Shown: positions 16,798 to 30,271, numbered from the stretch's first letter. The stretch: DNA of 64,000 nt from Methanosarcina horonobensis HB-1 = JCM 15518 (GCF_000970285.1 NZ_CP009516.1:2273036-2337035); one strand, 5' to 3'. The notes: generated by a model from the letters alone, not told the origin. A program made the numbers and translations.

Positions 16798-19071
16798 TCA
16801 AACTGCTGGGGCAGCTGTTACTGTTGTCGCTCTTCTCTTTTCACGGCGGGTGTCCATCATCACCATGAGAGGCGGGAAGACTATAAAGGTAGCAAAGATT
16901 GCCAGACAAACGTCAATTACCGTTACAAGCCCGAAATTGCTCAAAATGGGAAATGGAGAGAATATAAGAGCCGAAAACCCGAAAACCGTTGTAGCTCCCG
17001 AAGCTATAAGGGCTGAGCCTGTGGTAGTTACTGCCTGGTTGATCGCTTCTACAGGGGTCAGGCCATTATCTTTTTCTTCAAAGTAACGTTCCATCATCAG
17101 GATAGAGTATTCGGATCCAACACCAAGAATCAGAGACCCGAGAACTGCAGTCATGGGTGTATAGGGAATATCCAGCCCTGTCATCACAAGACCCGACCAG
17201 CCCACTACAATAAACATGGGGATTATTGGGGAGAGAGCTTTCACCGGGTTTCTGTAAACTACGATTAAACCTATCAACACAAGCCCTACGCCAAGCATGG
17301 TCATAAGGACTCTTCCGCTTGTAAGGGCACTGATTATATCAATCATTGCTACACTCTGACCGGTAATAATGACAGCAACACCAGGAGGAGGCTGCATCCA
17401 CTGTACATCTTCCCGTACAATATCCCGCAGTTCTTTTATGCCTGTTATTTCGATATTCTCCATGGCCTGCCCTATATCAAGGTCAATTGTAAGCAGCTGG
17501 TTACCCAGCATATATTCTTTCTTCTGGCTTTCCGGGATTTTTTCGTATATTGCCTGTATTTCCTCGGAGGTTTCAGGGATTGTCCCGCCATTTCGCTCCT
17601 TTACAAGGTCCACTACACTTGTGGTCCCGTATATTTGGTCCCTGTTTGTAACTTCATGCCGGCTGAACTCTTCCATCCACTTCAGAACTTCAGGGTCGCT
17701 GTTATCCTTAACTCTAAGGATAATATTGAGATGGTCTCCAGTTCCTGAAAGCAGGTCCTGCATTTGTTTGTAATTCACAAGGGAAGGCATATCCTGTGGA
17801 ATGAAGGAGTTTGTGTCGGTCTGGATAGGAACTGATTGATCTGCGTAAAGCCCCGCAAAACACGTAAGCAGAGAAATAACCAGAATAACTCTTGAATGTT
17901 CTATAGTAAAGTCGGCGACTTTTATCAGGGCTCTTTCAAGGGCTTTAGCTTTCTGAACCTTTGACGATGAAACATTTGAAGGGAGGGTTTCGGTTTTGAT
18001 TTCTTCTTTCTTTTTAAACAACCCAAAAGGGTTCTTCCTGAAAATCCAATCGAAACTGTACAGAGTTACCAGTCCGAAAAAGAGTGCAGAGAGGTAACAC
18101 ATAACGATGCCTATCAGAAGCAGTTTTCCAAAATCCTGGATCATAGGTACGGTGGAGGTAAAAAGTGGGATAAAACCAAGAGCCGTCATTGCCAGGGCGA
18201 TCAGGACGGCAGGACCTGTATGTTTTACCGTGCGGATAAGGGCTTCTTCCGAACTGTTTCCGGCATGGATTTCTTCTTCTATCCTGTTATGAAACTGAAT
18301 AGCATAGTCAATTCCCAGCCCTATCAGGATAGGAAAAGCTGCCATGGAGACCATTGTCATTGGCACCCCGACATATCCCATAAACCCGAAAGTAAAAAAG
18401 ACACCAAGAAGCACAACTGGTAGAGGCAAAAGTCCCCACCTTACATGCCTGAAGACCAGAAGGAGCACGAAAACCATAAGGATGGAGGCTATTCCGAGCA
18501 GCAGACCCAAACTCTGGGTCATCTCTTTGTTGATATCAACCCGCAGGGCGGGAGAACCGGTAACTATGAGGCTGTATCCCGGAGGAAAAGTAGCTTCTTT
18601 GAGCGAGATGTCCAGGGCATTAAGGATATCTTTCTTCTGCTGATCAGTTGCGCTGCCTGAAACTTTTATCACTATCATCATATGAGTCTTGTCAGGCATG
18701 AGAGATTCGAACAGAGCCGGCTGGCTATCAAGTACTTCCTTAATCTCCCGATCCGAATCGGGGATCCTGGACCTTCCAGAGATTTTATAATTGATCTGCT
18801 TTATTAGCACAGCAGGACTTGTGACAGACTGAACTCCCGGGACAATCAACATCTGCTGCTCCAGCCTGTTCGTAGCTTTCATTACAGCTTCAGACGCAAC
18901 CTCATCTCCCTGAACCATCACTACAATGCTGTCGGTCTCGAAGTTTTTCTTAAAGAGGTGATCGTAGTCTTTGTACAGTTGTGTACCTTTAGAAACAAAA
19001 GTTTCCGTCCCGGAAGCCATCTCGATCAGCTGTGTCCCCTGAAGGGAAATCAGGATAAGAAGGAATATCAT
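16798..19071 (-). CDS. HAE3/MMPL family RND exporter (second copy)
   Basis: A paralogue of the exporter at the left edge, collinear over its whole length: a first helix, a large external loop, GLGIDYAIQFHNR, a second half from about residue 390, and GVGSEYSILMMERYFEE. It has about 12 helices. The ATG at 19071 is the only standard start after the upstream stop, but the frame continues to encode KNIFEKLGILIQSNRPAI, matching the other copy. A GGGGG run (19142-19146) sits 7 nt before an ATA codon at 19134 that would give this longer N-terminus. The true start may thus be ATA or a mutated ATG. Confidence 0.9.
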   Translation of the reverse strand: MIFLLILISLQGTQLIEMASGTETFVSKGTQLYKDYDHLFKKNFETDSIVVMVQGDEVASEAVMKATNRLEQQMLIVPGVQSVTSPAVLIKQINYKISGRSRIPDSDREIKEVLDSQPALFESLMPDKTHMMIVIKVSGSATDQQKKDILNALDISLKEATFPPGYSLIVTGSPALRVDINKEMTQSLGLLLGIASILMVFVLLLVFRHVRWGLLPLPVVLLGVFFTFGFMGYVGVPMTMVSMAAFPILIGLGIDYAIQFHNRIEEEIHAGNSSEEALIRTVKHTGPAVLIALAMTALGFIPLFTSTVPMIQDFGKLLLIGIVMCYLSALFFGLVTLYSFDWIFRKNPFGLFKKKEEIKTETLPSNVSSSKVQKAKALERALIKVADFTIEHSRVILVISLLTCFAGLYADQSVPIQTDTNSFIPQDMPSLVNYKQMQDLLSGTGDHLNIILRVKDNSDPEVLKWMEEFSRHEVTNRDQIYGTTSVVDLVKERNGGTIPETSEEIQAIYEKIPESQKKEYMLGNQLLTIDLDIGQAMENIEITGIKELRDIVREDVQWMQPPPGVAVIITGQSVAMIDIISALTSGRVLMTMLGVGLVLIGLIVVYRNPVKALSPIIPMFIVVGWSGLVMTGLDIPYTPMTAVLGSLILGVGSEYSILMMERYFEEKDNGLTPVEAINQAVTTTGSALIASGATTVFGFSALIFSPFPILSNFGLVTVIDVCLAIFATFIVFPPLMVMMDTRREKRRATTVTAAPAV

Positions 19072-19535
19072 GACAATTATAGCTGGGCGGTTACTCTGGA
19101 TTAAAATCCCTAATTTTTCGAATATGTTTTTTATGGCGGTGCCCCCTTATAAGTAGTATTTCCTTTTTCTGGAAAGTTATCAGCAGTTATTCAGGAAAAA
19201 ATCCACAGCCACGGCTGGTCAAAATAAATTTCTCCATGAAAAAAATCAGGTCAGACTACTTTCATAGGACCATATAAAAATGCTTGCAGGTACAGGCTCA
19301 AAAGGACTGAAGGCAACATTTTTTGGGGTATAGAGATTCAGCTGGAACCGAATTTCGGGGTCAGTTTTTCGCCAGCTCTTTCGGGTTTGCAGTACTATTT
19401 ATAATATATCCTTAATGCTTTTTGATGACTTACTTCTTAAGGAGCTGACTAAATTCCTGCAAGCATTTTTTCTACGTTTCTGTGTATTTTCTTTTAGACA
19501 TCCCTCCTATTTTTTACAGGCACTTCTCTCCAGGG

Positions 19536-20024
19536 TTATTCTCCTGCCTCCAGTCTGGAATCGATTATTCTCAGGAAATTTACTTCTGTTTTCAGGCAGG
19601 CTTCATACCTTTCAATATCCTGCTCGCCAAGAAAACCTATGACGGAAGCGTGGATCTCTTCTATTATTCCCAGAATGATTTGATAGTACCTTTCTCCTTT
19701 TTCAGTTAAGGATATCAGAACTTTTCGCCTGTCTTCCGGGTCTATTCTTCTTTTGACAATTTCCTTTTTTTCCAGGGAATCTACCATTCTTGAGAGGCTG
19801 CTTCTATCCAGGTTCATACACAGGCCAAGGTATGAAGGGATGACTTCCCCCACCGTGCCGATTATCATGATAACTGTAGGTTGTTGTTTGCTAAGATTTT
19901 CGAGTCCTTCCAGTTTGGCTCTGGAAATACGCTGAAAAATTTCTCTATCAATCAGTTTGTTGTAGAGCATCTCCCTTTCCAGAAGCAACAGGTAGCTTTC
20001 TCTTGTTTTTTCTTTATCGTACAT
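19536..20024 (-). CDS. MarR family transcriptional regulator (paralogue)
   Basis: A 162-residue MarR protein similar to that at 2888-3364: QPTVIMIIGTVGEVIPSYLG, then LDRSSLSRMVDSLEKKEIV and the wing RIDPEDRRKVLISLTEKGE. It lies upstream of the second exporter on the same strand, with 464 bp between them. GAGG precedes the ATG. Two 19-bp direct repeats lie in its promoter region. Probably a repressor of the exporter module; ligand unknown. Confidence 0.87.
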   Translation of the reverse strand: MYDKEKTRESYLLLLEREMLYNKLIDREIFQRISRAKLEGLENLSKQQPTVIMIIGTVGEVIPSYLGLCMNLDRSSLSRMVDSLEKKEIVKRRIDPEDRRKVLISLTEKGERYYQIILGIIEEIHASVIGFLGEQDIERYEACLKTEVNFLRIIDSRLEAGE

Positions 20025-20904: not shown

Positions 20905-21687
20905 ATGAATTTCAATAAGAAGTCTATTTTTAAAGTTATGGCGTCTGTCTCTACCGTATTGATGCTGTTGGCTTTACTTCCTGCAGGAGTCTCTGCAGCA
21001 GCATGTAATCAGACAGATAGTAACCAGGCAGCATGTGTCCAGACAGCCGATGAACAGGCAACATGTAATGTAACATGTAATGGAGACTGTAGCCAGACAA
21101 ACTGTGATGGAACCTCCTGTAACGAAACTTCGTGTGATGTCACTTCCTGCGATGGAATCATGTGTGATGAAACTTCATGTGGCGAGACATGCTGCAATGA
21201 CGAAACATGCTGTAATAGAACTGCATGCGATGCGGGCTGTGACCAGGAAAATCGTAACGACGACTGTAACAGCACCTGCTGTAACGGAACTTCCTCTGAA
21301 GGAACTTCCTCTGAAGAAAACTGCTGCAATGGCATATGCGGGGAAACTTGCTGTGTAGGAACCTGCGGTGAAGCAAACTGTGACAGTGAGTGTGATCAGG
21401 CAACCTGTGATGACTGCTGTGAAGGAGATTGCGGTGATGGAACCTGCTGTAAAGAGTCCTGCACCCAATCCGGCTGTGAAGGTGACTGTGAACAGATAAG
21501 CTGCAATGGGACCGAGTGCAATAATGCCTGCGGACGTATTGCCTTTGATGGTAACAGTGGTACAGGATACCTTGAGAATGGAATATGCGACCTGTCTGGA
21601 CCCGAAGGCAACTATGGCTTTGACTGCACACAGACAGAGAGCCTTGAGGGAGCCTGCCCTGTACAGGCTGCATCAGCCTGCAACTGA
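20905..21687 (+). CDS. Secreted cysteine-rich repetitive protein
   Basis: A 260-residue protein with a Sec signal peptide (basic start, hydrophobic core, cut near GVSAA at about residue 31). The mature part contains 44 cysteines in about 228 residues, mostly spaced three residues apart in degenerate units such as CNET-SCDVT-SCDG, with several CC pairs and many N-x-S/T sequons (NQT, NVT, NET, NRT, NST, NGT). Few hydrophobic or basic residues are present. The layout suggests an extracellular, disulfide-cross-linked or metal-binding, perhaps glycosylated, surface protein. AGGAGG lies 7 bases before ATG. No family was recognised; it stands alone between two transcription units. Confidence 0.8.
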   Translation: MNFNKKSIFKVMASVSTVLMLLALLPAGVSAAACNQTDSNQAACVQTADEQATCNVTCNGDCSQTNCDGTSCNETSCDVTSCDGIMCDETSCGETCCNDETCCNRTACDAGCDQENRNDDCNSTCCNGTSSEGTSSEENCCNGICGETCCVGTCGEANCDSECDQATCDDCCEGDCGDGTCCKESCTQSGCEGDCEQISCNGTECNNACGRIAFDGNSGTGYLENGICDLSGPEGNYGFDCTQTESLEGACPVQAASACN

Positions 21688-22299: not shown

Positions 22300-22917
22300 T
22301 TATACCGCTGTGATAATTTCATCTACTACAGATCTGTCTCCCTGAAGCTCATTTTCAGCATCTGGATCGAATAGCATAGTGAAATTGACATAGGCAACTT
22401 CTCCAGGAGATAATTTATTATTTCCATTAATTTTAACTTGACCAGCTTGATTAAGATCATCAAGATCAATGTAATCATTTTCGTTATAGTCAGTGTAAAG
22501 ATTGACGATGCTTACATCATTATATCTCATTTTAGTTATTTGAATCCACTTACTGATATTAGTTTTTCCTCTGTTAGTTCCGGCTTCGTTGGTTATTCCA
22601 AGTAGAATTTCAGCTTCTCGCTCAGCATCTGTATCATCACTAATCTCTATATCAGTAACATCAATTTCCAAATAGACATCATTTGCTTCGATAGACTTTG
22701 GGTCATTATAAATATATATTGATTCTTTTTTGGAAAGGCCTGGAGGAACGTTATCAAAGTGAAAAGTATGACTTATATTAATGTCCAGAGCTTTTATGGT
22801 AAATGTGTTATTTTCACATACCTCTGTATCACTAAAATATGCTTTTGTTCCGACACTGGCTAAAATTATAGCTATACTAATGACAAATAAGCTCAAAATT
22901 ACTTTTTTGCTTTTCAT
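22300..22917 (-). CDS. TasA/camelysin-like exported protein with SipW-type signal
   Basis: About 205 residues. The N-terminus is a SipW-dependent signal peptide: KKVILSLFVISIAIILASVGTKA then YFSDTE, the hallmark of TasA, camelysin and archaeal bundling-pilus-like subunits. The rest is a beta-rich domain with a conserved-type ENNTF(T)IKALDINI strand. An acidic insert near DYNENDYIDLDDLN could bind Ca2+. ATG at 22917 is chosen because it follows a GAGTGAT site; a GTG seven codons earlier is possible. It lies with two related genes and two signal peptidases. Likely a cell-surface fibre or matrix subunit. Confidence 0.78.
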   Translation of the reverse strand: MKSKKVILSLFVISIAIILASVGTKAYFSDTEVCENNTFTIKALDINISHTFHFDNVPPGLSKKESIYIYNDPKSIEANDVYLEIDVTDIEISDDTDAEREAEILLGITNEAGTNRGKTNISKWIQITKMRYNDVSIVNLYTDYNENDYIDLDDLNQAGQVKINGNNKLSPGEVAYVNFTMLFDPDAENELQGDRSVVDEIITAV

Positions 22918-22979
22918 CTTAATATCACTCTTACGCACATACTATAACTTATTTGGTGGTTATTTGTATGTTTTATTTT

Positions 22980-24056
22980 TCACCTGGCATTTTCCACTGA
23001 AGATGTGTCGTAAAAAATATACAATACATTATCATGAATTATGAAATAAGCACAAGATTCGATATCCCTGATCACGCGTTCACTCATATCAACAGCAGCA
23101 TCTATAAGGTCCTGAAGTGAAGAAATCTCAACCTGTCTAAGAGAACTCCAGTTATCTGGAATTTTACCCTTGCTAATAAATTCTTTAAAAGAAGAATATG
23201 TCTCTTCTTTTTCTAATTTTTTGATATATTCAGGATCAATTTTATTCATTTTTGTGCATGGGAGAAGTATCCCTACTAGAATTATGCTAAGCAGAAATAA
23301 GGAAAGAGGCAGTTTAATTACCGATACTGAAGGCTCCTTTTTAATTCTTAATTTCTCATATGTATCAACGTTTTCACTAAATTCCAGTTGATCAGGTATC
23401 TTATAATATGCAGAACTGATTATTAGGGGTAAAGCAAAAGCTGTTGTATTGCTAATTTTTTCTCCATTTATTTCTCCCTCATAATTGACATGAGTAACAA
23501 TTTCTATCGTTGTATCCGATGAATATTTTAGCTGGTTCTGTATTTCTGTTACCTTTGACTGGATCTCCGATACATTAAGGGAAAACTCATGGATAAGTAC
23601 ATCTTTATTCTCAATGCCAGTATATTTTATTTCTTTCACAGGAAATTCCTTTTCCCATATAATTTTCTTACTCTCTCCAGAATTCTCCTTACTGGTTGCA
23701 ACAACCAAAGTTTCGCATTCTACACTAAGAATCGCGGAATCTGTAGCATTCAGGTTATATGCAAATGAAACATCAAGAGTAGGAGACGCAGCAAAAAAAT
23801 ACATTGGTTTTCCCATTTCAAGTCGGGTTCCTTTGGAATAAAGAGGATTTTTTTCTGTTACAGGGGCTGTGTACGTATATTTTCCGTGTTGCGTATAAGA
23901 AGAAACTAACTCTTCTCGTTCTTCGTATAAATCTTTTGTATATGTTTCATAAGCCCAAGAGCTGAAAAATATTATCCCCATCCCTAATACAACAATAAAC
24001 ATTCTAGAGTTGTTTATTAATTTATTTTTCAGTTTAAGGAACAATATTCTCAGCAT
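22980..24056 (-). CDS. DUF5305 family membrane protein
   Basis: 358 residues: one N-terminal helix (about 18-35), a 220-residue outside domain with the sequence GKYTYTAPVTEKNPLYSKG typical of DUF5305, a second helix at about 255-275 and a cytosolic tail of 80 residues. It lies 63 bp upstream of the 22300 gene on the same strand. DUF5305 proteins are often found next to SipW-type signal peptidases and TasA-like subunits in archaea (from memory), so a role in assembly or anchoring of the exported proteins is likely but inferred. Confidence 0.75.
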   Translation of the reverse strand: MLRILFLKLKNKLINNSRMFIVVLGMGIIFFSSWAYETYTKDLYEEREELVSSYTQHGKYTYTAPVTEKNPLYSKGTRLEMGKPMYFFAASPTLDVSFAYNLNATDSAILSVECETLVVATSKENSGESKKIIWEKEFPVKEIKYTGIENKDVLIHEFSLNVSEIQSKVTEIQNQLKYSSDTTIEIVTHVNYEGEINGEKISNTTAFALPLIISSAYYKIPDQLEFSENVDTYEKLRIKKEPSVSVIKLPLSLFLLSIILVGILLPCTKMNKIDPEYIKKLEKEETYSSFKEFISKGKIPDNWSSLRQVEISSLQDLIDAAVDMSERVIRDIESCAYFIIHDNVLYIFYDTSSVENAR

Positions 24057-24388
24057 ATTATCTCTCGCAATAAGTGTACCAATTTATTACTTACTTATGA
24101 ACTCAAACATATTTAAATTTTTCATATTGTCCAGCGTGTTATTTTTATTCCCCTGCTTTTATTCATTATCATTCTAACAATACATCCTTATCAGGATAAA
24201 ATCTTATTTTTTTAACAAAGATTCATGCATTTGTAACTTCGAAAAATCTTCCATTAAGAATTGTTATTAGTCTTGGAGCATAATATGATATTTATAAATT
24301 TAAAGGACTATTGAAGCAAAAGGTTAGGACTAAACACAGGCTAATGTTAGACAGAAGAGATAATGGCAGATTCAATTTATAATAAAGT

Positions 24389-24638
24389 GCAGTTACTCTG
24401 ATACCTGCGTAGAAGAATCAAATCTTCTATTCTCGAAAATAAGAGAAACAGAAAGAAGAAATCTGAAGGAGATCTAAAAATTTAGTAAAGAGTCGTATGC
24501 GAAAATATCAGTAGAAAGGTTCTTTTCAAAAATAAAAAAATGGGATTCCGAAGAGTTGTCATAAAGTATAAAAGATCGGATAGAATATTCAGGATGTTAG
24601 TAGTAATAGCAACATTCTTTATTTGGAAAAGAGTATAG
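24389..24638 (+). pseudogene. Decayed DDE transposase C-terminus
   Basis: Read across two or three frames, this stretch gives AVTLIPA*KNQIFYSR, then KESYAKISVERFFSKIKK, then MGFRRVVIKYKRSDRIFR and MLVVIATFFIWKRV. This is the end of an IS4/IS5-like DDE transposase, with the catalytic Glu in SVERFFSKIK. In-frame stops and at least two frameshifts show it is a fossil. Confidence 0.6.
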
Positions 24639-24820
24639 GGGCAGTTTTGAAATGGGCACAATAACAATTTGATTTCTGTTTTTTATATAGTATCAAATAT
24701 AGTTCCGAATAAAACTGTCAGATTGATGATTATTGTATAGCATCGAATAAAAATAAACAGAATTTCATTCTAATGAACATCCAAACATCCTGATGAACGT
24801 TCTGATGAATATTTGCATGT

Positions 24821-25846
24821 CTATACTAAATTGAGCTTTCTTTTCCACAGAAAAAACAAGCGATTAAACCTTCCTCTTTTAACCTTTCTTCCGAGTTCTA
24901 TCTTTCTATACCACAAAGGAAATATAGATAATGTAAAAATCGAGGTATAAAACACAATCTCTGCAACCACAGGTAAATAGGGATTTATTTCTGCTAGCGA
25001 AATTACCCAGAATACAGGTAGGATATAAGGTGCTGAACTTATCTTTACACGCATGTTTTCGGGAGCATTAACTAGAATTTCACTATATGGGGGAATCACT
25101 GCGTACCAAGGTTCGATAGCAAACCTATTCTTGGAATCTTCCGGCAGAAGCACGCATACGGAAGGGAGAAAATATGAGCTTTCTACCGTGTTCTCCTTCT
25201 GAAGGACCGCAGGTCCGTTCTCTCCCAAATTACTCAAAATAGTTCCTGTAAAAATAAACCCGCTTACCAGAACGACTGTTGCCAGCCGCTTTCCCCGGAT
25301 AGTAAATGAAATACGTCTTGAGATCTTTTCCTTCTTATTTTCAGCTTTACGAGCACTAATAGGGTTGGAATATCTAATTATTGTCTTGATTTCGTCCAGA
25401 ACTATGACAGTTGCCGGAATTATTACCGTGAAAAAGAAAAATATCTTGTTCTTAGAAGTTTCAGGAAGATACCCTGCAAATGGAATAACAAAGACAAGTT
25501 TTCCAACTACTTCCGATGCCGGAACTTTAAAAATATCTTCCTCCTCGTTTGCATCCCCTTTCGTCCTGAAGATCCGTTCCTCTCCTTCTTCTATACCGAT
25601 AATCCTATGTGTTACAAATGTATCTTTGCCTCCAGGATCTTGGAAAGCTATAATATCTCCGGCCATGAGTCCATCCGGAGTGACGGATTTCACAACTATT
25701 ATATCTCCGGGCAGCATCACCGGAGTCATACTTCCACTCAGTACGACCAGAGTCTTTTCCGATCCTAGCACAAATGGAATTAAGGCACTTGCCAGAAATA
25801 TGGCAACTAGAAAAATAATTGCTATCTGAATAACTCTTTTTTTCAT
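24821..25846 (-). CDS. Signal peptidase I, ER/SipW type, with C-terminal membrane extension
   Basis: 341 residues. The peptidase domain (about 1-155) has an N-terminal helix, the nucleophile Ser in VVLSGSMTPVMLPGD and the His of the ER-type Ser-His dyad in VTHRIIG, followed by the usual RTKGDAN box. After a helix at 135-155 there is an additional region with two or three helices and an outside loop (about 185-300) absent from ordinary archaeal signal peptidases. GGAG sites precede ATG. It probably processes the SipW-type signal peptides of the neighbouring exported proteins. Confidence 0.88.
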   Translation of the reverse strand: MKKRVIQIAIIFLVAIFLASALIPFVLGSEKTLVVLSGSMTPVMLPGDIIVVKSVTPDGLMAGDIIAFQDPGGKDTFVTHRIIGIEEGEERIFRTKGDANEEEDIFKVPASEVVGKLVFVIPFAGYLPETSKNKIFFFFTVIIPATVIVLDEIKTIIRYSNPISARKAENKKEKISRRISFTIRGKRLATVVLVSGFIFTGTILSNLGENGPAVLQKENTVESSYFLPSVCVLLPEDSKNRFAIEPWYAVIPPYSEILVNAPENMRVKISSAPYILPVFWVISLAEINPYLPVVAEIVFYTSIFTLSIFPLWYRKIELGRKVKRGRFNRLFFLWKRKLNLV

Positions 25847-25899
25847 AACTCCGTCTCCGATCGGAATTTATCTCCCTAGGCTTCCGAAATATCCTAACA

Positions 25900-26571
25900 T
25901 TATTCTGGATCCGTTACAAAACTCTTTACAGATTCGTCTTCCATAGTTATGTTAATAGTAAACGGAGCAATTTCCGAAACATCACCATCAAAATAGATTT
26001 TTACCTTTGCAATAGAATTTGCTTCAAGCAAATGGTCTGACCCGTCAATTATTTCTCCAGACGAATTGTTGCCGCTGAAGAATTCCCTTCCTTCTATCGT
26101 TATCTCTGTTATACGACTGGTATTCCCTTGAGGGACATTCCACCATGCCTGAGTTTTGTCAATAGTTACACCCCAAGTTCCACTGATATTGAAAGTAATC
26201 CCATTAAATTTTTCGTTGTTTTCTGTGTTTTCTATAAGTTTGCTGTCGGATATTGTTAGAGAGTCAGCTTCATTGCCGGCTGGAACTACAGCAGTAGTTT
26301 CGGTTGAATTTTCGTCCGGAGCTTCAGTTGAATTTTCATCGGAAGTTTCGTCAGGAGTTTCGGAAGGAACTTTATTATCGGGGAGTGCTTGGCTGCTGCC
26401 GGTAGAGGCAGCTCCGCTCTCCCATACACCTGCAGTAAGTGTATTTCCGGTACTTTGCTCCATATCGGAAAAATATGCGAATGTACCGATAGTACTTGTC
26501 CATATACCGTTCAGTGATAAAAATGAAGCAAACAGCAAGCAAAAAAGTATTAATTTATTTGTAATTTTCAT
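25900..26571 (-). CDS. Exported protein with SipW-type signal peptide (TasA-like)
   Basis: 223 residues. The signal peptide ends GTFAYFSDMEQSTGNTLTAG, the SipW/TasA hallmark. Next comes a Thr/Glu/Asp-rich linker with repeated PDE(T/N)S-type units (about 70-95), then a beta-rich domain. It overlaps the end of the upstream signal peptidase gene (26555-27055) by 17 bp, so the two are co-translated, and it starts after GGGAGAAATAAGG. Probably a surface-exposed fibre-type protein and direct substrate of that peptidase. Confidence 0.78.
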   Translation of the reverse strand: MKITNKLILFCLLFASFLSLNGIWTSTIGTFAYFSDMEQSTGNTLTAGVWESGAASTGSSQALPDNKVPSETPDETSDENSTEAPDENSTETTAVVPAGNEADSLTISDSKLIENTENNEKFNGITFNISGTWGVTIDKTQAWWNVPQGNTSRITEITIEGREFFSGNNSSGEIIDGSDHLLEANSIAKVKIYFDGDVSEIAPFTINITMEDESVKSFVTDPE

Positions 26572-27055
26572 CCTTATTTCTCCCGTTATCCATTAAATTC
26601 TTTACTTCTTGAATTATCAGGATAAGAGCTGGCACAATAACAAGTATGAGAAATCCCGTTAAGGTATTAGCAAAATGTATAAGAGCACCCAGATAAGGAA
26701 TTTTAAAACGCATAACTCCGATTACATCTTCAGGTACCACCACATAGTTGTCCGCATACGCGCATCCGTCTCCTTTTGTTCTATAACCTTCAGGTGCAAA
26801 TCCTATTACTCTGTGCGTGATTATGAATGGTAAGGGATTATCCTCAAATTGATAATAGTAAGATATGATGGTCCCTAATTCAATGGAAGTCTCCCTGGAA
26901 TCTATCACAATGATATCATTCGAGGTTATTGTGGGCTCCATACTGGTGCCCGTTACAGTCATAAAACGAAACGGGCCCGTTGGAATCATGGTACATATGA
27001 TAGGGGCTATTAAGATAATCAGGAGTATTACAGTAAATGCATCTTTTCTGTTCAT
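26555..27055 (-). CDS. Signal peptidase I, short ER/SipW type
   Basis: 166 residues, the compact form of the family. N-terminal helix (8-25), nucleophile Ser in VTGTSMEPTITSND, general-base His in ITHRVIG, then RTKGDGC, and a C-terminal helix at about 130-152. It overlaps the next gene, a SipW-type substrate. It differs clearly from the 341-residue peptidase, so the cluster has two dedicated processing enzymes. No good ribosome site is visible. Confidence 0.87.
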   Translation of the reverse strand: MNRKDAFTVILLIILIAPIICTMIPTGPFRFMTVTGTSMEPTITSNDIIVIDSRETSIELGTIISYYYQFEDNPLPFIITHRVIGFAPEGYRTKGDGCAYADNYVVVPEDVIGVMRFKIPYLGALIHFANTLTGFLILVIVPALILIIQEVKNLMDNGRNKDENYK

Positions 27056-27297
27056 ATGTATTGAGAGATTTTGTTCAGATAGTATGAATGCTTCAATTAG
27101 CGATCTGAATCGCCTAATTTGCCTTAGATTGCAGCAATTTGCAGAACTCCGTTTTCACTTATTATTGCATATCTGGGCACACCTTTGATAGGACAGATTC
27201 TCTAAACACAATTAATACATCATGATTCAACAATATCAAATTTACTATACAGTATTCGAAATTTAAATAGTGGGGATTAGCCCACTATTTGTTAGCA

Positions 27298-27963
27298 TTA
27301 TGGTGTGTCTACATCAGCCTGTTCAAGAATGAATGCGACATCAAAGCTAACGCTGTCTCCCTGAATTGTGTTGTCAACTTCCTCTCCAAGTGGAATTCTC
27401 CACTTGAAAATGACGTCGTAGTCATCAGTAGGGCCCATCGATTCTATGGCCTTATCGAAGTGATCTGAGGCATACGAATTTATTGTAGCGAAATAAGTAT
27501 TTTCAACTGGAGTTTCGGGAGCTGGGACGACAGTTCCAGTCCCGTCAGATGTCAGTATAATGTCACCTTCAGTAAGTGTTCCCGAGGAGCTATCTACGTC
27601 AATAAATACTAGCATCTCTGCTACTCCTCCGAGTTCTCCTACACCTGTACCACCAATATTATCTGACTCATACTGAGTAGTTCCTTCACTTTCCGTATTC
27701 GCAATTGCAGAGAACGTAACGTCCAGTTCTCCAATGAGAGATCCAACATTTTGGATTGTCTGAGTTTCAGTGCCAAAATCCCCAGGTTGTTTGTTGTTGA
27801 GCGTAAACGGAGCATTAGTTAAAGTAAGGTCAAGCGTTCCTGCAGTAAGAGTATTATCTTCACTTATTTCTGTATCCTGGAAGTATGCCCATGTTGCGGA
27901 TCCTGCCATAACACCGACCATGCCAATGATGAGCACACTTAAAAGTATTTTCTTGTTGAACAT
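27298..27963 (-). CDS. TasA/camelysin-like exported protein with SipW-type signal
   Basis: About 221 residues when started at the ATG at 27963, which has GAGGT upstream; the frame is open for 45 more codons but these do not look like protein. The N-terminus FNKKILLSVLIIGMVGVMAG leads to ATWAYFQDTEISEDNTLTAG, the classical TasA/camelysin signal and first strand. The mature part resembles archaeal TasA-like beta-sandwich subunits (NAPFTLNNKQPGD, then IQNVGSLIGELDV). It ends in a strand, with no membrane anchor, so polymerisation or secretion is likely. Confidence 0.82.
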   Translation of the reverse strand: MFNKKILLSVLIIGMVGVMAGSATWAYFQDTEISEDNTLTAGTLDLTLTNAPFTLNNKQPGDFGTETQTIQNVGSLIGELDVTFSAIANTESEGTTQYESDNIGGTGVGELGGVAEMLVFIDVDSSSGTLTEGDIILTSDGTGTVVPAPETPVENTYFATINSYASDHFDKAIESMGPTDDYDVIFKWRIPLGEEVDNTIQGDSVSFDVAFILEQADVDTP

Positions 27964-28556
27964 TTCTATACCTCTTTTCGTGTTGATATTGTCAATATTT
28001 TGATTGTCAATGTGGCCGATCATCGGAAAGTCAAAGGGAAGAAAAGATTCCATTTGTGCATATTTGCGGATTCTTTTTTCCCCAGATTTCGATCCCACTT
28101 ATGGATTTTTGTCTTCGCACCATTTGTGGTGATCTTTCCCCACTCCCGCTGATCTGAGCTATTCTCTCTTATGAGTTTTTTGAAGATAGTTATTTGTGGA
28201 TTAGCGGAAGTTTGGGCAGTTAACGGGACATTAAACGCTGTCAAGAAGCTTTCTAACTCTATATGGTGGTAATGGAAGTTTCTATCGGACTGCTGCAAAA
28301 AAAGGTACATTACTTGATTTATCTAAGGCATATTATAACTCTTATATTTAAAGAACAGATATCTTTATATAGTTTTTAATGACGACGTAAGTCTAACATG
28401 CAAAAATTTGTTCTGGATATGCCTTACATCCAGGAAGAAAAATAATTAAAATTTGGAAAAGTAACGGTAAAGAGTTTTTGCTCCGATAATAGTTGATTAC
28501 CATTATCAGTAAATCTTCAGTCTGTATGTGGATACACAGCATACTTTGAGAAAGAT
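27964..28556. other. Intergenic region between TasA-like gene and its regulator
   Basis: No supported gene. It must contain the promoter of the 27298-27963 gene. AT-rich with a TTTATATAG TATA-like sequence near 28363-28372. Confidence 0.45.
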
Positions 28557-29096
28557 CTATTCTTCAAGTTTTTGAGTGTGGAGTTGATGGACTGTTGAGG
28601 AGGCTAAAAAGGCCAAGCTTATAAAAAGCATCCATTGAGAGCTTGAGATCCATTCGATAACCTCTTCATGGATTATTACACTACCGAGAATGGTAAAAAC
28701 GCTGAAACCCAGGTAAAATTGGCTCCATGGAATGTCGCCTTTTTTGACGGTTTCCATGTATATATCAAAATTGCGAGATGCAGGAAGAAGTTCCACACTT
28801 TCCTTTTCTCTATTATAGACTATTACTCCCAGACTTTCCATTTTAGGAATGTGGGTTTGGATCAAAGATACATATATACTTTTTCGTATACTGCTTTTAG
28901 GTTCTTCAATTCCGGATTCTAGGCGTGCTATTTCTTCAGAAAGGGAGCGTACACTCTGGCTTCCTTTGTTGTGAAGAATTTCGAGAACATACCTTCTTCG
29001 ATCGTTCTGAAGAACTCCGAAAATATCGCTCTTCGGCAACTGCGCGTATTGGAAATTTGTTTTGATATCTATCGCATCAATTTCCTTCCCGTTCAT
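28557..29096 (-). CDS. Membrane-anchored winged-helix regulator (DUF7344-like)
   Basis: 179 residues. The N-terminal winged helix starts at about residue 22 (DIFGVLQNDRRRYVLEILHN), and continues with the recognition helix region SIRKSIYVSLIQTHIPKMES and LGVIVYNREKESV as wing. Two membrane helices follow (about 125-145 and 150-168). This composition matches archaeal DUF7344-type regulators (from memory). GGGAGAT precedes ATG. Being the last gene of the SipW/TasA cluster on the same strand, it is a candidate regulator of that cluster, sensing at the membrane. Confidence 0.75.
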   Translation of the reverse strand: MNGKEIDAIDIKTNFQYAQLPKSDIFGVLQNDRRRYVLEILHNKGSQSVRSLSEEIARLESGIEEPKSSIRKSIYVSLIQTHIPKMESLGVIVYNREKESVELLPASRNFDIYMETVKKGDIPWSQFYLGFSVFTILGSVIIHEEVIEWISSSQWMLFISLAFLASSTVHQLHTQKLEE

Positions 29097-29593: not shown

Positions 29594-30271
29594 CCCCGTC
29601 CTTCAGGTCGGGGATGAAGTGAACCCTCGCCTCTTCGTTTTTTCACTTTAATTATCTAAATCCTCACTTTTTTTGTAAAATAAGGTTTTTTTGGCACCAT
29701 AACCAGAGGTGGTGCCAGCCACCTTTGGCTAGGATGTGATATAAGTTGGAATTACGCAGTTTTAGCCATGGCTATGGTCAGATTACTTACCACATCGTGT
29801 TGGTGCCTAAGTATCGATACAATATATTCTACAATAAGAGAATTAAAAAGGATTGCGAGTTGATTCTCAGTATAATTTGTGCTAAAAATGGCTACAAAAT
29901 ACATGCAATGGAAGTAGTAGATGATCATGTTCATTTGTTTCTTGAATTTCATCCAAGTAATTCTCTGTCAGAGGTAATTCAGTATTTGAAAGGAGGTAGT
30001 TCTTACAGCTTATTCAAGCTTCATCCTGATCTTAAAAAACGATATTGGGGTGGAAATCTATGGTCAAGTGGAAAGTTCTATCGATCCGTTGGAAACGTAA
30101 CTGCTGATACAATTAAGCATTACATTAAAGAATCGCAAGGAAAACCGAGTGAAGAGTCTCGATTGCATAGGTTCATGAGATCCAAGCAAAGAAGACTTGA
30201 TGATTTCTAATTACCAGAACAACCGGGCGGGCGGCCCGAAGCATACCCCATCCTTTAGGGTGGCCGCCCGC
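29594..30271 (+). mobile_element. IS200-type element with tnpA only
   Basis: The gene is flanked by subterminal hairpins. On the left is CCCCG-tccttcaggt-CGGGG (29594-29613). On the right is a perfect 10-bp inverted repeat, GCGGGCGGCC (30227-30236) against GGCCGCCCGC (30262-30271). Such hairpins are the sites bound by Y1 transposases. Exact cleavage ends are not determined. Confidence 0.8.
29746..30210 (+). CDS. tnpA: Y1 (HUH) transposase TnpA, IS200/IS605 family
   Basis: 154 residues, full length for the family. The HUH pair is in DDHVHLFLEF (about residues 61-70) and the catalytic Tyr in NVTADTIKHYIKESQG (about 127). The palindrome-binding basic C-terminus is present. All active residues are intact, so this could be active and could also mobilise in trans the tnpB-only element at 7898-9249. 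TTG/ATG choice is uncertain by a few residues. Confidence 0.92.
   Translation: MELRSFSHGYGQITYHIVLVPKYRYNIFYNKRIKKDCELILSIICAKNGYKIHAMEVVDDHVHLFLEFHPSNSLSEVIQYLKGGSSYSLFKLHPDLKKRYWGGNLWSSGKFYRSVGNVTADTIKHYIKESQGKPSEESRLHRFMRSKQRRLDDF

Follow-up and report, generated by a model that had tools for sequence, protein, structure and literature searches.

The gene cluster in Methanosarcina horonobensis

The DNA analysed here, termed the window, is a stretch of 64,000 nucleotides (nt) from Methanosarcina horonobensis HB-1 = JCM 15518 (NZ_CP009516.1:2273036-2337035), whose genome is a single contig of 5.02 Mb. Within 6.8 kb of this window, seven minus-strand genes form a cluster that probably encodes a dedicated TasA-type fibre system. 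The original prediction, made from the DNA alone, had placed here a TasA/SipW-like fibre cluster with three exported proteins bearing a SipW-type signal, two signal peptidases of the endoplasmic reticulum (ER) type, a DUF5305 protein and a membrane-bound helix-turn-helix (HTH) protein. When the window proteins were scanned against Pfam and NCBIfam, all of these features were found at this position and on the minus strand.

Beginning with the highest coordinates, the cluster encodes a DUF7344 winged-HTH protein (28557-29096), a TasA/camelysin-type fibre subunit of 221 amino acids (aa) (subunit 1, 27298-27963), a short ER/SipW-type signal peptidase of 166 aa with two transmembrane (TM) segments (26555-27055), an exported protein of 223 aa that has the donor strand of such subunits only (donor-only protein, 25900-26571), a long ER/SipW-type signal peptidase of 341 aa (24821-25846), a DUF5305 protein of 358 aa (22980-24056) and a second TasA/camelysin-type subunit of 205 aa (subunit 2, 22300-22917). 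In this order the intergenic gaps are 593, 242, -17, 53, 764 and 62 nt, the negative value being an overlap of the short peptidase gene with the donor-only gene. Judged by these distances, the genes for the short peptidase, the donor-only protein and the long peptidase form one tight unit, and those for DUF5305 and subunit 2 another; the 764 nt between the long peptidase and DUF5305 genes (24057-24820) are AT-rich and have no clear gene inside. The most likely start of subunit 1 is the ATG at 27963, which stands behind an AGAGGT site and was preferred over a GTG at 28098, and that of subunit 2 is the ATG at 22917.

The first gene product has one or more hydrophobic segments near its C-terminus (at 129-147) and matches PF24035 with 3e-24. 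DUF7344 relatives stand first in nearly every Methanosarcina copy of the cluster. The protein is probably a membrane-bound regulator of the cluster, a role in keeping with reports of membrane-bound HTH proteins that regulate archaeal and bacterial pilin genes (PMC10269533).

Subunits, signal peptidases and accessory proteins

On sequence grounds, subunits 1 and 2 belong to the TasA/camelysin family. Both exceed the PF12389 cut-off of 22.5 bits, with 36.4 bits (6e-9) and 29.9 bits (6e-7), respectively, and subunit 1 also matches the TasA model NF046066 (2.6e-7). A profile of 30 relatives matches the solved B. subtilis TasA structures 5of1 (E 9e-12) and 8aur (1e-11) over positions 33-197 of 201. 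Hidden Markov models (HMMs) from which the window sequences and their closest relatives had been excluded still recover the mature parts of subunit 1 (~2e-23) and subunit 2 (~1e-15). Across the 30-row alignment, including both window subunits, T24 and the proline-box residue P60 are invariant; N72, N198 and Q201 are near-invariant, and N198 and Q201, which mark a C-terminal N..QGD motif, occur in at least 90% of the rows, again including both subunits. In TasA the proline box and the C-terminal Gln are the most conserved residues and lie in the protomer interface, and the donor strand is the N-terminus exposed by signal cleavage (PMC10151520, PMC9674648). Cleavage is predicted between GSATWA and YFQDTE in subunit 1, whose mature form would begin at Y27, and between VGTKA and YFSDTE in subunit 2. 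Reading PF12389 as a metalloprotease was rejected, as neither subunit has an HExxH motif and the best solved relative is TasA.

The SipW-type signal itself is described by TIGR04088 (curated cut-off 19 bits), which subunit 1, the donor-only protein and subunit 2 match with 29.9, 21.4 and 23 bits, as predicted for three exported proteins. The donor-only protein, however, is not the third TasA subunit it had been taken for, since it combines a donor strand with a variable C-terminal part and has no TasA body. It has the signal in common with the TasA-type subunits, as well as the segment AYFSDxExSxGNTxTAGxW, and then diverges; the alignment reveals neither a proline box nor a QGD, the PF12389 score of 13.6 bits stays below the cut-off, and outside the N-terminus it matches TasA HMMs weakly. 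In the AlphaFold2 model a disordered linker, acidic and Thr-rich, is followed from about residue 90 by an all-beta domain (pLDDT mostly 62-84), whose fold matches are generic Ig-like sandwiches such as adaptin ears, ApaG, TRAP and archaeal pilin heads. TapA is neither among the PDB profile matches at E<=1 nor among the fold matches listed. In Bacillus, TapA gives its N-terminus to TasA, and the tapA and sipW genes overlap. No sequence homology to TapA was detected, although a distant one may have gone without a match, and the proposed likeness is one of function. Most of the other Methanosarcina loci (over half) encode at the donor-only position a protein in which a similar N-terminus is followed by PKD repeats, with up to 1,343 residues and up to 11 matched PKD stretches. 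A protein that can donate but not accept a strand would find its place at a fibre end, and we propose by analogy that the donor-only protein may be a TapA-like starter, a cap or anchor, or an adhesin.

Both signal peptidases exceed the cut-off of TIGR02228 (short, 9.5e-22; long, 1.1e-31), and the long one also matches Sec11C (7p2q, E 1.6e-11). The Ser-His catalytic motifs and the conserved Asp (GxSMxP, THR, TKGD) are intact in both, directly readable as GTSMEP, THR and TKGD in the short enzyme and as GSMTP, THR and TKGD in the long one. The extra membrane domain predicted for the long peptidase does exist as a C-terminal membrane extension; its actual form is three further hydrophobic segments, between which some 60 residues are exposed. 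In a peptidase tree that left out housekeeping signal peptidases, the short enzymes form one clade and the long enzymes another, and several families are represented in each. The pair is therefore old, and a recent duplication as its source was rejected. From their co-localisation with proteins bearing SipW-type signals we infer that the cluster peptidases process the neighbouring camelysins. In the cluster most closely related to that of the window (locus L093, 8290-8679; G025:C1 ~1706364-1706800) the short peptidase gene is interrupted by a frameshift and a stop into two fragments; the same genome also holds an intact short peptidase in a second cluster.

The DUF5305 protein (PF17231, 2.7e-40) consists, according to alignment and structure model, of a TM helix, an exposed beta-sandwich domain, a second TM helix and a conserved C-terminal part. 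For the model, which is of middling confidence, the Foldseek and VIA-align matches are of a generic Ig/FN3-like kind, and neither SPC22/23 nor a pilus chaperone is among those listed. The literature searched makes no mention of DUF5305. Of 393 genomes sampled from the phylum, 107 encode a member of the family. An alignment including distant rows held no scannable stretch, and a closer alignment gave ten named loci. In haloarchaea, DUF5305 has fimbrial neighbours: TafA matches occur in 23 genomes, 21 of which have DUF5305, in all 21 with a TafA-like gene at most 10 kb away; a signal peptidase gene and genes of the TafE-like and TafF-like kinds also occur nearby. Given this gene neighbourhood, the most economical reading is a role of DUF5305 in fibre anchoring, assembly or processing.

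Conservation of the module and comparison with known systems

The grouping of these genes exceeds what is expected by chance. TIGR04088 has three matches at E<=0.05 in the whole genome, and all lie within 5.2 kb in this cluster (chance ~3e-6). TIGR02228 also has three genome-wide matches, two of them in the cluster; the third is a 188-aa enzyme elsewhere, of a kind present in nearly every genome of the genus. DUF5305 occurs in a single copy, inside the cluster. Among 31 Methanosarcina genomes, 11 have DUF5305. Every one of these encodes a cluster-type signal peptidase, and SipW-type matches reach E<=0.001 in ten of them and 0.048 in the remaining one. Only one of the 20 genomes lacking DUF5305 has such a match at E<=0.001, on a 3.6-kb contig. 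Hence, the presence of DUF5305 tracks that of SipW-type proteins and cluster-type peptidases (Fisher p ~1e-6). M. acetivorans gave neither a DUF5305 nor a SipW-type match in control searches, whereas M. spelaei and Methanosarcina sp. DH2 are among the strains that carry the cluster.

Conservation of the gene set is directly supported as well. DUF7344, TasA, short peptidase, donor-only protein, long peptidase and DUF5305 recur together in 11-12 of the 31 Methanosarcina genomes and also occur as a set in Methanococcoides and other families; most Methanosarcina genomes with the cluster hold one copy. The Methanosarcina regions (L080-L094) encode one or two DUF7344 proteins and one to three TasA-type proteins besides the short peptidase, the donor-only protein, the long peptidase and DUF5305. 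Some of these regions differ in gene order or strand: L088 and L094 have DUF5305 inverted, L089 the long peptidase gene. Three regions, L081, L085 and L086, lack the short peptidase. In Methanococcoides seepicolus (L159) no gene of the set is missing and the order is kept, and there the genes for short peptidase, donor-only protein and long peptidase overlap by 4 nt each. Compact versions occur in members of the phylum that are further removed; L140, for example, has two TasA genes followed by those for the short peptidase, the donor-only protein, the long peptidase and DUF5305.

The tapA-sipW-tasA operon of B. subtilis resembles the cluster in its TasA-family subunits, its SipW-type signals, the ER-type peptidase within the cluster, the partner with a TasA-like N-terminus and the overlapping genes of peptidase and partner. 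In contrast to B. subtilis, the methanogen cluster has two peptidase clades, two subunits, DUF5305 and the DUF7344 regulator, and its partner protein, in whose place a PKD adhesin can stand, has no detectable homology with TapA. Two camelysin-family subunits together with SipW are also known from B. cereus (sipW-calY1-bc_1280-calY2 and CapP/TasA/CalY), where the subunits co-assemble with a helper protein (PMC10151520, PMC13082335). However, B. cereus has one peptidase, no DUF5305 and another helper, CapP being likened here by description and not by sequence. Among archaea, the bundling pili of AbpA (Pyrobaculum) and AbpX are donor-strand fibres reported to be TasA-like, but the sequence link to our subunit profile is insignificant (AbpX, E 0.18 over ~50 positions; AbpA is not among the matches listed). 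The haloarchaeal Taf fimbriae (NCBIfam TafA, TafC, TafE and TafF; DUF1102) share the arrangement of fimbrial genes next to a signal peptidase and DUF5305, whereas their subunits are of the DUF1102 type and their peptidases form a separate clade. A search with NF052520 gave no TafA match in the window genome, and no paper behind the NCBIfam names was found in the literature searched. TasA homologues in archaea have already been reported (PMC10151520, citing Wang et al. 2022), thus the kind of system is known. What sets the present variant apart is its pair of conserved peptidase clades, a putative end-piece that can be exchanged, and DUF5305. Part of the module may have been described by Wang et al. 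2022 or in the Taf literature; a complete TasA-type gene set of a methanogen was not found in the literature searched.

Three further genes border the cluster. Convergent to it lies a plus-strand gene (20905-21687) for an exported, repetitive Cys/Asn/Thr-rich protein of 260 aa with CNETSCDxTSCDG-like units, which has no Pfam match and possibly binds metal. Just upstream of the regulator gene is an IS200-type transposase (29746-30210, plus strand; PF01797). A large RND/MMPL-like membrane protein of 757 aa (16798-20024, minus strand), recognised from its sequence, is encoded downstream of a MarR regulator gene, with which it probably makes up an efflux unit adjoining the cluster.

Proposed fibre assembly, alternative readings and significance

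The original prediction of a TasA/SipW fibre cluster holds for two TasA-family subunits, for dedicated peptidases and for a conserved gene set, and the whole may be a complete matrix-fibre system of a methanogen. From what is known of these families, the two subunits would leave the cell by the Sec pathway with their SipW-type signals, and the cluster peptidases would trim them between A and YFxDxE, freeing the N-terminal donor strand. By homology with B. subtilis TasA, each subunit would then insert its donor strand into the next one, so that fibres would form on the cell. The donor-only protein, with a freed N-terminus and no strand-accepting body, would sit at one fibre end, where it could start or anchor the fibre in the manner of TapA or act as an adhesin. 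Two membrane proteins with exposed domains, the long peptidase and DUF5305, probably hold the nascent fibre at the membrane or feed it, and the DUF7344 protein probably controls expression of the cluster. Some observations weigh against such a dedicated system. The subunits are only 24% identical to each other, which makes their co-assembly uncertain; the gap ahead of DUF5305 means that a single transcript is not assured; and the subunit profile has no significant match to archaeal AbpX.

The same chemistry could serve an adhesive pilus instead of a matrix, with a few fibres, each tipped by the donor-only protein or the PKD adhesin, gripping partner cells or minerals. We consider this quite possible, if somewhat short of an even chance, and adhesion and a biofilm matrix are as likely as each other as the function of the cluster. 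The large PKD-repeat proteins at the donor-only position in many Methanosarcina loci, the single cluster in most genomes and the fimbrial names of its haloarchaeal relatives in NCBIfam are in line with adhesion, but the present data do not separate the two functions, and Bacillus TasA-type fibres both bundle and scaffold.

A different role is conceivable for DUF5305. Instead of assembling or anchoring fibres, it might be an accessory subunit of the long signal peptidase, in the way that SPC22/23 accompanies Sec11. From Methanosarcina to haloarchaea it is found together with a signal peptidase gene, and it has a predicted membrane-anchored, exposed beta-sandwich, yet no SPC22/23 chain is among the fold matches listed for its middling model, and the conserved C-terminal part has no obvious counterpart in SPC22/23; we regard this reading as unlikely. 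Doubtful to a still greater degree is an extension of the fibre model in which each peptidase has substrates of its own and the long one joins DUF5305 in a membrane platform that couples cleavage to polymerisation. The donor strand would be released only into a waiting acceptor, making the platform a peptidase-driven counterpart of an usher, and the donor-only or PKD protein would be the exchangeable fibre end.

The Pfam name Peptidase_M73 goes back to the first description of camelysin, as a protease, and TIGR04088 denotes a signal peptide only, so that the subunits might be camelysin-like monomers of the surface or envelope whose shared signature mirrors peptidase specificity alone; this is very improbable given the lack of HExxH, the conservation of precisely the TasA interface residues, the donor-only partner and the fimbrial neighbours in haloarchaea.

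For the dedicated TasA-type fibre system that we favour, the cluster gives DUF5305 a first functional context and makes it usable as a marker for such clusters across Halobacteriota. The module can be read as an inventory of the components that may process, start and anchor donor-strand fibres in archaea. Aggregation of Methanosarcina, which is important in digesters and in syntrophy, is thereby now open to genetic test.

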